Assembly (NCBI RefSeq): GCF_032118995.1
Contig: NC_092661.1
Location: 15,757,006-15,821,005, forward strand
Direction of reading: 5' to 3'
From: Asterias amurensis
Lineage: Eukaryota; Echinodermata; Asteroidea; Forcipulatida; Asteriidae
DNA length: 64,000 nt
How positions within the stretch are numbered: position 1 is the stretch's first letter; each line of letters opens with the position of its first letter. A model generated the notes under the pieces. That model did not search any database, was not told where the DNA came from, and saw nothing but the letters and a program-made list of their open reading frames with translations. Positions 16,592-39,002 of this stretch are shown in pieces. Made by a program: the position numbers and the translations under genes.

Positions 16592-17160
16592 CACAACCAC
16601 GGAATATTTAGCGCTTATGGCACCATTAAAGAACAGCTGATTCTATGCCCGTAAGCGCCTATTTCTGTTAGTAGTGCCATTCGATTGGGCAGAAGGCATT
16701 TTCCAAAATTCAGCCTGGTCTCACCGTGCATTTTTGAAGCAGTGTAATTTTGTCAAAGTGTTTCCAATATCAAACGAGGGCAGAGCTGGACTCTATAAGC
16801 CCCCCCCCCCCCATACAAGAAATTAACATGGCCTGAAGGAGGATGATTCAAAAGAGGGCGCTATCAGAAGTAGTTTGTACATAGTTCGCCATATGGGGGA
16901 CATAATCCCCGGGGAGACAGAGTTTCCTGCCACACCCCTGACCTCTTCAGCTCTGAACACCTCTTCTTTTTTTTACAAACTATTCGACTATCCGTATGAT
17001 GTAGCTCTATTGTGTGAATCCATTGTAAGTATTTACTTCGTTCTTTTTTAAGTCAAAAATTTCGAATGGGAATTTCCTTTTAACTGCAATTTTAGTGGAC
17101 CACAATCTGGCGAATCAAGCCACAGTTGACGTCCAATTCTGGCTCAAGCAGTAGACAAGA
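16592..17160. other. No gene seen: junction between F-box duplication and Ig array
   Basis: Contains a run of C at 16801-16812 and unique AT-rich sequence. No domain or splice-supported exon was recognised. Confidence 0.4.
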
Positions 17161-17220
17161 AAGGAACATAAAGAAGGAAAAAAAAAATCGAGAATAACAA
17201 ACGTTATGAGTGTGAAACAC

Positions 17221-17230
17221 AATAAAAGGC
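17221..17230 (+). promoter_or_regulatory. TATA-like core promoter of A1
   Basis: AATAAAAGGC about 200 bases before the A1 ATG. All five Ig genes have ATAAAAGGC followed within a few bases by agcttcc at the same distance, which supports a promoter role. Confidence 0.55.
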
Positions 17231-17426
17231 TAGCTTCCTGTGCCAATTGTGTATTTTTATTGAAACCACATCCCGAATTGAGACGTTATAAAGTGGGTCT
17301 TCAACATTTTGCAAGTTAGATGTAAAAGTAGTGAGTGACTGGTATAAGGATCTCTGGTTTTCATATCAGTGCAAAGACTGCAGTTTGCTGTATTAATTGC
17401 TCATTCTACACGTATCAACAGCTGCA

Positions 17427-18623
17427 ATGTTTCTGCTCTTTCTTGTTATGACATCGATCTGTGGGTCACGTGGGATGTCATTATTCAGGAGTCACCCAGT
17501 TGACACTGTCGCCGTGACAGGACGAAGTGTGTCGTTGATTTGTACGCTTCAAAATGTACAATGTGACGCATATGTCACTGGATACATTTTGCATTGGGAA
17601 CAGGGCCGAAACATTATTTCTTCGTGACTCCAAGTATACAGCGATGTTGATGAAACCAGGTACACCACGTCACGTCAAGGCTGTACGTGGTATTTACATA
17701 TACAGAACTTGGTACCAAATGATGAGGGCTATTACCACTGCTATATATATAGGATTCGCCCTTCAGTCAAAACTGAACGCTCAAACCAAGCGCAACTAGA
17801 TGTGGTTTCGCCCATAGACACTACTGTCACACCATCTCACACTGTAAAACGATATGGTGAAACTGCTGCTTTTAATTGTCAAACAAGTCGAACAGTTGGA
17901 AATGGTTTCACATTCAAGTGGTATAAAATACCACGAGGTGAATCCCGGCAGGTATTATTGAGAGAAACTGAGACTATTAAATTTAGTGACAGCAAAAAGA
18001 TGATGACAATGATGAATCTACAACCACAAGAAAACAATCTGACGGTCATATGTTTGGTATTTAAAGAAGTAACCCCAGTTAACGGAATTAGTTCCCATGC
18101 CTCATTATCTGTTCTTCCAATTGAAGAAACCATGACAACCAACACAAATTTAGTGACGTCTGAAAACATCCCTTCTGATCGATCTAAAGGACCAGTGCAT
18201 CCTTCACAATCGCAAACAACCTCGTATCCAGCTACCAACACCGACTCTGCACCAAGTGGACCGCTAGATCGACAGCCTACCCCATCTGCACCCCAGACCC
18301 CATCACCTCTATCGACCAAGAAGCAAGATCCCGATCCTGACAGTAAGAACCCTTCTTCAGGATGTATGGACTATACCGTCATCTTAGTAGGATGGTCTTT
18401 GGCTGTTGTCTTCTGCTTTCTCTTCGTCTCATCACTCATGTACATTATCGTGACCAAAAGAAGATCCATAGCCGATCCTAATTCAACCCGTGTAGTTCAG
18501 ACAGCTCCAGATGAAGATGCAAATGCGTATGAGGAAATGGAAACCCAACTACACCGGCAAGCTGCTTCTACTGGCCGTACAGAAACCTCACCATCCAGCT
18601 ACCAAGATTTGATATTCCAGTAA
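17427..18623 (+). pseudogene. Ig receptor A1 (type A), one in-frame stop
   Basis: ATG 17427 is chosen because it aligns with the start of B2 and begins the signal peptide (MFLLFLVMTSICG). Domains: V-type Ig (ending DEGYYHCYIY), second Ig, Pro/Thr-rich stalk (PSAPQTPSPL), one membrane helix (YTVILVGWSLAVVF, then CFLFVSSLMYIIV) and a short tail with NAYEEM and SSYQDL. The last fits the ITIM pattern (S/I/V/L)xYxx(L/I/V). The codon at 17625-17627 is TGA where B2 has Gly in the same loop of the V domain. The frame is otherwise open to the end, so this is a single nonsense lesion. Either a very young pseudogene, a polymorphic null allele, or a base error. Single exon. Confidence 0.85.
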
Positions 18624-37479: not shown

Positions 37480-37591
37480 AAAAAACCATCTGACATATAT
37501 TTCGGGTTAAGCTGTAAACCAGGAAGAAAATTGAAGAAAAAAAAAACGAGAAAAAAACACGAGAATAACAAACGTTTTGGGTGTGAAAACC

Positions 37592-37601
37592 CATAAAAGG
37601 C
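37592..37601 (+). promoter_or_regulatory. TATA-like core promoter of A3
   Basis: CATAAAAGGC, 210 bases before ATG 37802. A 5-base insertion separates it from the agcttcctttacc that follows it in the other copies. Confidence 0.5.
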
Positions 37602-37801
37602 TCACTAGCTTCCTTTACCGATTATGTATTTTTAGCGAACCCATTTCCCGAATTGAGACTTTATAAAGTTGGTGGTTTTCAACACTTGCAAGTTAGATTT
37701 AAAAGTAGAGTGACGTATAAGGATCTCTGGTTTTCATATCAGTGCAAAGACTGCAGTTTGCTGTAATTTCATCGCTCATTCTACACGTATCAACAGCTAC
37801 A

Positions 37802-39002
37802 ATGTTTCTGCTCTTTCTTGTTATGACATCGATCTGTGGGTCACGTGGGATGTCATTCTTCAGGAGACACCCAGTTGACACTGTCGCCGTGACGGGACGA
37901 AGTGTGTCGCTGAGTTGCACGCTCCAAAATGTACAATGTGATGCTGGTGACACTGAATACATTTTGCATTGGGAACAAGGCCAGAACACAATTATTTCTC
38001 AAGGTCTCCGAGTGTATAACAGAGTGGTGGATGGAACCAGGTACACCACGTCACGCGAAGGTTGTACGTGGTATTTACATATACAGAACGTGATACCACG
38101 CGATGAGGGATATTACCACTGCTATATCTACAGGGGTCGCCCTTCAGTCCAAACTGAACGTTCAAACCAAGCGCAACTAGATGTGGTTTCGCCCATAGAC
38201 ACCACCGTTACACCGTCAAACAGTTTAAAGCGATATGGTGAAAATGTTACTTTTAATTGTCAAACAAGTCGAACAGTTGGAAATGGTTATAAATTCAACT
38301 GGTATGAAATATCACGAGGTGAATCCCGGCAAATACCATTGAAAGAAACTAAGACTGTTCACTTTAGTGACAACAACAAGATGATGACAATGATGAATCT
38401 ACAATCACAAGAAAACAATCTGACGGTAATCTGTTTGGTTTTCAAAGGAGCAACCCCAGTTAATGGAAGTAATTCCCATGCCTCATTATCTGTTCTTCCA
38501 AGGGAAGAACCCATGACAACCAACACAAATATAGTGACGTCTGAAAACATCCCTTCTGATCGATCTCAAGTACCAGTGGATTCATGGACAACCAACAACC
38601 TCGTATCCAGCTACCAACACCGACTCTCCACCAAGTGGACCGCTAGATCGACAGCCAACCGCATCGGCACCGCTTACCCCATCCCCTCTACCGACCAAGA
38701 AGCAAGATCCCGATCCTGACAGTAAGAACCCTTCTTCAAGATGTATGGACTATACAGTCATCTTAGTAGGATGGTCTTTGGCTGTTGTCTTCTGCTTTCT
38801 CTTCGTCTCATCACTCATGTACATTATCATGACCAAAAGAAGATCCATAGCCGATCCTAATTCAACCCGTGTAGTTCAGACAGCTCCAAATGAAGATGCA
38901 AATGCGTATGAGGAAATGGAAACCCATCTACACGGGCAAGCTGCTTCTACTGGGACGAAAGAAACATCGCCATCCAGCTACCAAGATCTGATATTCAAGT
39001 AA
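37802..39002 (+). pseudogene. Ig receptor A3 (type A), frameshifted before the membrane segment
   Basis: ATG 37802. Signal peptide, V-type Ig (DEGYYHCYIY) and second Ig are intact. At about 38581, A3 reads gtggattcatgg where A2 reads gtggatcaagg, a net one-base insertion. The shifted frame stops at 38717-38719, giving 305 residues with no membrane helix. The remaining frame (to 39002) still encodes DYTVILVGWSLAVVFCFLF, TKRR, NAYEEM and SSYQDL without further damage. Either a young pseudogene or a gene now making a soluble two-Ig product. The second Ig domain is closer to B2 than to A1 or A2, which points to gene conversion. Confidence 0.85.

Follow-up and report, generated by a model that had tools for sequence, protein, structure and literature searches.

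Five receptor genes with two kinds of tail

The DNA analyzed here, referred to below as the window, is a 64,000-nucleotide stretch of the genome of the sea star Asterias amurensis (C14:15757006-15821005, in an assembly of 491.5 Mb and 23 contigs). It carries an array of five genes for putative surface receptors of the immunoglobulin (Ig) kind, which share an extracellular part (the ectodomain) and fall into two types, A and B, according to their membrane helices and cytoplasmic tails. The order and strands given in a preliminary description of the window, A1(+) B1(-) A2(+) B2(-) A3(+), were borne out, as were a common signal peptide, two Ig domains (a V-set domain and a second Ig), stalk and upstream DNA; the ~130 bp before the ATG are 77-98% identical in nucleotide sequence over the ten gene pairs. 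A2 (25096..26295, plus strand) and B2 (30193..32034, minus strand) are intact and encode 399 and 613 amino acids, in both cases in a frame that is open from upstream of the ATG as far as the tail. A1 (17427..18623, plus strand) has an in-frame TGA at 17625-17627 in Ig1 and is otherwise one open frame. B1 (22227..24076, minus strand) has lost 5 bp near 23888, gained 4 bp near 23385 and acquired a TAG at 23223-23225, its tail frame being open. A3 (37802..39002, plus strand) is broken by a 1-bp insertion in the stalk, within 38576-38589. The upstream region of A2 that is common to the array (24880..25095, plus strand) has TATAAA at -145; the TATA-like box found at -140 reads TATAAA in A1 and A3 and TATTAA in B1 and B2.

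The protein architecture was examined in the two intact genes. A2 consists of Ig1, of the V-set kind (25162..25479), Ig2 (25480..25791), a Ser/Thr/Pro-rich stalk with TKKQDPDPDSKNPSSG near its end (25792..26046) and a membrane helix without a charged residue (26047..26124), all on the plus strand. Besides cysteines 39 and 107, Ig1 has an additional pair, 46 and 88; P0002 also has both, and they presumably form a disulfide. Ig2 has cysteines 153 and 211. Pfam V-set matches were obtained for A2 (E 6.6e-11) and B2 (E 7.8e-11), with a further Ig domain in both, and each protein has one strongly hydrophobic helix. In each PDB sequence search, the 60 matches listed were mostly antibodies, with Dpr-interacting proteins, T-cell receptor and CEACAMs among them, and Pfam reported only V-set or Ig domains. 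Predicted structures were poor (mean predicted local distance difference test score 42 for A2 and 50 for its ectodomain). A search of the protein collection with A2 returned four A-type relatives.

The tails differ in length and in their tyrosine motifs. That of A2 carries YGEM (Y369) and SSYQAL (Y393), at 26200..26283 on the plus strand, the two tyrosines being 24 residues apart; two Yxx[LIVM] motifs arise in 1.3% of shuffled A2 tails. In B2, the membrane helix (31009..31089, minus strand) is a diverged homolog of the A helix and is followed by a sequence resembling the immunoreceptor tyrosine-based inhibitory motif (ITIM), SVYALV (Y455; 30661..30678), by an ITIM, LIYADL (Y585; 30271..30288), and by a sequence like the related switch motif (ITSM), TVYADI (Y606; 30208..30225), all on the minus strand. 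Three or more ITIM or ITSM motifs were found in 89 of 100000 shuffles of this tail. The sequence VIPYHLSK, around residue 542 of B2, recurs in B frames at 3003 and 3182 kb and in a B protein on C18; it does not match the ITIM consensus and is possibly a further docking site.

Positions 17101..24733 and 24757..32700 are tandem duplicates, so A1, B1, A2 and B2 represent one duplicated A-B unit. Compared in 300-bp windows, the two copies mostly show 84-90% identity where Ig is encoded and 94-98% elsewhere; outside the Ig parts, identity falls to 85% in the opening 300 bp, to 89% at 21001-21186 and to 91% in the closing 245 bp. Synonymous change between the units in Ig coding DNA amounts to 29 of 139 sites for A and 26 of 143 for B, as against 59 of 1793 noncoding positions in 18601-20400 and 39 of 824 in 21189-22088 (Fisher p 2e-13 and 2e-7); both noncoding windows were picked by hand, and the first opens with 23 coding bases. 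This synonymous excess indicates that the Ig parts hold older or imported variation, as would be expected if ectodomain segments had been swapped with other copies or alleles. The same comparison bears on whether the assembler misplaced two haplotypes in tandem, A1 and A2, like B1 and B2, being alleles whose ectodomains are unusually divergent. In most noncoding windows the difference is only about 2-6%, which is an ordinary allelic distance in marine invertebrates. However, there is no N in the window, a third A copy begins 11.5 kb after A2, and other clusters of these genes are independent of the A1B1/A2B2 duplication; we regard the haplotype explanation as improbable.

Repeats accompany the array. 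A ~390-bp repeat (5188-5580, 24342-24732, 28861-29247, 32300-32699 and others) has about 15 copies in the window, including partial ones, and one copy closes each A-B unit. The copies inspected have inverted ends, near TTAAAGGCAGTGGACACTATTGGTAATT, and the repeat resembles a miniature inverted-repeat transposable element of the piggyBac type. Directly upstream of A3 lie 912 perfect copies of TTA (34744-37479, 2.7 kb). Just before them, an open frame at 34246-34635 resembles by eye the C-terminus of the reverse transcriptase of a non-LTR (long terminal repeat) retrotransposon, although a Pfam search of this frame at 1e-3 gave no hit; the TTA array is perhaps the expanded 3' tail of this element.

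Ectodomain and tail histories within the array

When A and B genes of the window were compared, nucleotide identity was 85-92% over Ig1 and Ig2 but fell to 63-64% in the helix and to 52-54% in the proximal tail. At the protein level, Ig1 and Ig2 differ at 21% of residues within a type and at 19-20% between types; type therefore has no effect on these two domains. Helix and proximal tail differ at 8% within a type and at 72% between types. The preliminary description held the two tails to be unrelated. This is correct only of their distal parts, where B has a long extension that is absent from A, for the helix and membrane-proximal tail are diverged homologs: the A2 and B2 helix plus tail give a protein alignment score of 80, which none of 2000 shuffles reached (mean 30), and a DNA score of 88, as against 34 for the best of 1000 codon shuffles. 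These scores rule out tails unrelated throughout. Without the helix the signal is weaker, 279 of 2000 protein shuffles and one of 1000 DNA shuffles scoring as high.

The sites that are informative about the relationships of the five genes divide in the same manner. The split of A from B is backed by 12 of 14 sites in the 5' flank and 91 of 94 in helix and tail, and by none of 11 in Ig1, 3 of 30 in Ig2 and 5 of 14 in the stalk; 12 of the 30 Ig2 sites group A3 with B2. In tree tests, the flank with the signal peptide and the helix with the tail demand the split (p-AU, from the approximately unbiased test, 5e-7 and 1e-11), and Ig2 rejects it (p-AU 0.034), the sole Ig partition to do so. Exchange between partners thus appears to have kept the ectodomains alike, as in known paired receptors, with the reservation that in the window trees only Ig2 taken alone rejects the split. 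A 3SEQ-like test confined to the Ig domains placed 4 of 60 triplets below 0.05/60 (3000 shuffles); the same test on the whole alignment was discarded as confounded by the diverged tails. A peak of diversity at a loop like complementarity-determining region 2 was not used, 962 of 20000 shuffles being as high.

The receptor family across the genome

The A2 protein has at least 89 matches in its own genome, five on C17 and C18 and the remainder on C14. Thirty fetched stretches and the window were surveyed for related frames; because the regions were located with A2, the counts are lower bounds. At least 53 open frames end in a recognizable tail (31 A, 22 B). For comparison, 42 long frames were used: 24 A (340 amino acids or more) and 18 B (450 or more), window frames being admitted only above 400. 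The eleven frames thereby excluded are eight outside the window (66-324 amino acids) together with A1, B1 and A3. Of the long frames, 37 have a start codon and a signal-like stretch at their beginning; two A frames (2930 and 3084 kb) and one B (582 kb) lack the Ig1 start, and an A at 576 kb and a B at 3214 kb fail a crude signal-peptide test. The tail patterns missed a pair of frames on C18 and two single frames, one at 3282 kb whose end is changed and another at 4013 kb that lacks its last motif; all of these therefore stand outside the 53. Alternating strands are a local trait, since all 14 tail-bearing frames at C14 545-589 kb, of both types, lie on one strand.

At a threshold of at least 55% identity the ectodomains form four classes with several members (13A/7B, 6A/3B, 4A/5B and 1A/1B), and two B rows stand alone. 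Both tails occur in all four classes, so the prospect that A and B ectodomains might prove unrelated, named in the preliminary description as grounds for abandoning it, is contradicted in this genome. In six chosen pairs of the same class with different tails, the Ig parts are 74-87% and the tails 25-41% identical in amino acids. The relation is reversed between classes: A tails are 84-95% identical on Ig parts of 26-41% (five chosen pairs), and B tails 60-74% on Ig parts of 28-40% (six chosen pairs). The tail motifs are equally regular. All 18 long B frames have two to four motifs of the form [SIVLT]xYxx[IVL], and in each of the 24 long A frames the tail has two tyrosines and no more, in Y[EG]E[ML] and SSYQ[ADE]L. 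No K, R or H was found in the helix of any of the 24 long A frames, of which two have a D there; the K/R listed for three rows belongs to the KRR that follows the helix.

Tail type changes 11 times on the ectodomain tree, at least six of the changes being forced by starred branches (mean of shuffled types 13.9), and once on the tree of helix and proximal tail, a figure reached by none of 500 shuffles. A single clade of B ectodomains is rejected (p-AU 8e-6, with two long-branch rows left out). Between classes, median synonymous divergence (dS) is 0.057 for A tails and 0.253 for B tails, and about 2, near saturation, for the ectodomains. Since dS of the A tails is so far below that of the ectodomains, tails have been copied or homogenized across classes; by itself, the between-class dS fits movement of either part, tail or ectodomain. 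Taken together, these data show that type and ectodomain have been re-combined many times, and that two homologous but strongly diverged tail cassettes occur on each of four ectodomain classes.

Pairing is also seen on C18, where two neighboring frames (L038:1150-2307 and 4648-6333) share an ectodomain, with 64% identity over 379 residues that include parts of the tails. One has a B tail with VYALV, LIYADL and TLYAGI and aligns with B2 nearly end to end; its partner has a third, short tail with a single tyrosine in YVEV, ending HHYVEVL. A long ITIM-like tail is thus paired with a short one outside C14 as well. The invertebrate paired-receptor system proposed in the preliminary description therefore stands as an architecture that extends well beyond the window, while activation by A and a use in immunity are proposals.

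Two explanations would deny the family a role in recognition by immune cells. The first is that it is a decaying relic without function. Three of the five window genes are broken, as are 11 of the 53 tail-bearing frames if short ones are included. However, 40 long open frames with tail motifs lie outside the window, and nonsynonymous divergence (dN) exceeds dS in the ectodomain in only 4 of 263 within-class pairs; the matches of A2 in its own genome and the 42 long open frames rule this explanation out for practical purposes, and we give it hardly any weight. The second is that the receptors serve gamete recognition or adhesion. Fertilization proteins, too, typically show rapid change and exchange in their ectodomains. 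Sea star eggs use SH2 signaling at fertilization (PMC11593052). For the C18 pair, Pfam gave weak Izumo-Ig hits that miss its cut-off (E 1e-5 and 4e-4), but the stronger Pfam matches of these proteins are to general Ig domains. Multi-ITIM tails are otherwise hallmarks of receptors of the leukocyte type, and a gamete or adhesion role seems unlikely.

The remaining features of the window lie outside the receptor genes. An F-box and WD40 protein of 498 amino acids is encoded in one open frame at 12668-14161; a segment overlapping its 5' end, 11564-12775, shares 72% identity with 15425-16570. On the minus strand, two LDL-receptor class A exons (47689-47958 and 56511-56789) belong to one multi-exon gene or to two genes. 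Minisatellite arrays of 39/78 bp occupy 7457-10275, and 48 perfect copies of ATTT lie at 52271-52462.

Signaling, known systems and significance

We favor, with a probability of roughly 0.6, a family of paired receptors formed by repeated exchange between ectodomains and two tail cassettes, in which B is probably inhibitory and A provides a second output. Each gene would encode a type I surface receptor with signal peptide, V-set Ig1 with an extra cysteine pair, Ig2, Ser/Thr/Pro-rich stalk, helix and cytoplasmic tail. Since ectodomains interchange within a class, receptors of one class would bind the same kind of ligand. PI3K is recruited by YxxM, and SHP phosphatases by ITIMs; in ITIM receptors the phosphorylated tail binds SHP-1, SHP-2 or SHIP. 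The phosphorylated B tails (S-x-Y-A-x-[VL], LIYADL and T-[VL]-YADI) would be expected to bind a SHP-2-like phosphatase with tandem SH2 domains and so to dampen the cell. The A tails, which have no basic helix residue for an adaptor bearing the immunoreceptor tyrosine-based activation motif (ITAM), would signal alone through YEE[ML], a PI3K- or Src-SH2-like site, and SSYQxL. The A output would be a second and probably opposing one, the response being set by the ratio of A to B bound. The sequence pattern indicates that tails are kept alike across classes and that, as ectodomains diverge, segments of them pass from one type to the other; the likely mechanism is gene conversion or cassette transfer. 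The most likely use would be recognition, of pathogens or in allorecognition.

Several observations weigh against this interpretation. In the array only A2 and B2 are intact. The A|B split is not rejected by Ig1 (p-AU 0.37) or by Ig1 and Ig2 together (0.069), and the stalk tree weakly favors it. Across the genome, the distribution of tail type on the ectodomain tree is not fully random and shows slight clustering: as few changes sufficed in 32-35 of 500 shuffles, and in 96-105 of 500 without the two long-branch rows, where 11 changes are again required. The closest ectodomain bears the other tail for 16 of 42 frames. Support for the A/B branch of the helix and tail tree is weak (82/0), the branch appearing in 85% of 200 bootstrap trees. 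Among A tails, dN is larger than dS in 62 of 177 pairs between classes and in 39 of 99 within a class, and dN/dS for the B1 and B2 tails is 0.84; part of the tail conservation is homogenization of DNA, selection not being proven, and because synonymous sites are homogenized too we claim no strong purifying selection on the tails. B2 had no relative in the protein collection at E 1e-3, in a search of limited word sensitivity. Finally, an ITAM in the receptor's own tail, of the CEACAM3 or FcgRIIA kind, has the form YxxL/I-x(6-12)-YxxL/I, and is ruled out for A, since the A2 tyrosines are 24 apart and the first motif is YxxM or YxxL; as the second tyrosine matches the ITIM consensus, A and B may not be opposed.

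The last point leads to the main rival of opposing signals, namely that A is inhibitory too. Both tails would then be inhibitory or modulatory, A as a short receptor with an ITIM and a PI3K-type site and B as a long one with several ITIMs, and the family would tune the strength of a signal and not its sign. SSYQxL matches the ITIM consensus in 24 of 24 A tails, which have neither an ITAM nor a basic helix residue for an activating adaptor. Against this, Y[EG]E[ML] is kept in 24 of 24 A tails, there is a single ITIM-like site and not several, and the third tail of the short C18 partner, with its YVEV, suggests that what recurs is a short non-B partner. We consider two inhibitory outputs a rather unlikely alternative, though one to be taken seriously. 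Within the paired-receptor interpretation, B is probably inhibitory, and the sign of A may be either opposing or inhibitory, given that its last tyrosine also matches the ITIM consensus.

The preliminary description compared the array with the vertebrate LILR, SIRP and PIR receptors, a likeness that holds for architecture and fails for membership. In LILR, KIR, SIRP and PIR the inhibitory member has ITIMs in a long tail, as do all 18 long B frames here. The activating member has a basic helix residue and an ITAM adaptor; A has no such residue and no ITAM. Domains, helix and tail of these vertebrate receptors are on separate exons, whereas the coding sequences of A2 and B2 are single open frames, an intron in the 5' untranslated region being possible. 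Closer parallels exist in vertebrate paired Ig receptors that are kept alike by gene conversion: Siglec-11/16 (PMC5701461), CD300A/C (PMC12447643) and CEACAM1/3 (PMC2832619). These resemble the sea star receptors in having near-identical ectodomains on different tails, one of them inhibitory, in ectodomain exchange, and in the frequent pseudogenes of one partner (CD300C and SIGLEC16P in their case). They differ in that the sea star genes are single open frames and number in the dozens, that A lacks an ITAM and a basic helix residue, and that A tails are near-uniform across four ectodomain classes.

Botryllus and Hydractinia provide invertebrate precedents. The Botryllus fester co-receptors (FcoR) are likewise an Ig family of type I proteins with long tails and clustered genes, with an ITIM in some tails and a hemITAM or core tyrosine motif in others (PMC12065747). 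They differ in consisting of V-Ig, sushi and two C2-Ig domains and in acting beside a fester partner (PMC12065747); the Pfam search of the sea star proteins gave a V-set and one more Ig domain and no sushi hit. In the parts of that account considered here no shared two-tail cassette system is described, and the term 'gene conversion' is absent from the text (PMC12065747). The Hydractinia Alr genes are also clustered members of the Ig superfamily, with putative activating and inhibitory members and ITAM or ITIM motifs; compared by description only, this 41-gene family differs in having its own V-set and I-set domains (PMC12065747, PMC11999971). The oyster receptor CgIgIT2 similarly combines Ig domains with an immunoreceptor tyrosine motif and is held to sense microbes, but it has five Ig domains and an ITAM, and no paired partner is described in the part seen (PMC11999971). 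No echinoderm paired Ig receptor family was noted among the open-access matches listed, judged by title and start of abstract, a collection outside which subscription journals and preprints mostly lie.

A broader proposal, to which we give an even chance, is that of a genome-wide combinatorial system, in which multi-ITIM and YEEM/YQxL cassettes are repeatedly copied onto independently diversifying Ig ectodomains and kept alike by conversion, each specificity being read as A and as B. If true, this would be a germline way to give every specificity two outputs, in an invertebrate and with single-open-frame genes, and stalk and helix would be the recombination joint. The intact A2 and B2 and the other open-frame A/B pairs are ready matched constructs. 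The family offers an invertebrate test of whether two-tail Ig pairing arises repeatedly and is held by exchange between genes, as in Siglec-11/16, CD300 and CEACAM. Allograft reactivity in a sea star was reported in 1976 (as cited in PMC2248247), and these receptors would provide candidate genes for a question that has been open since then.

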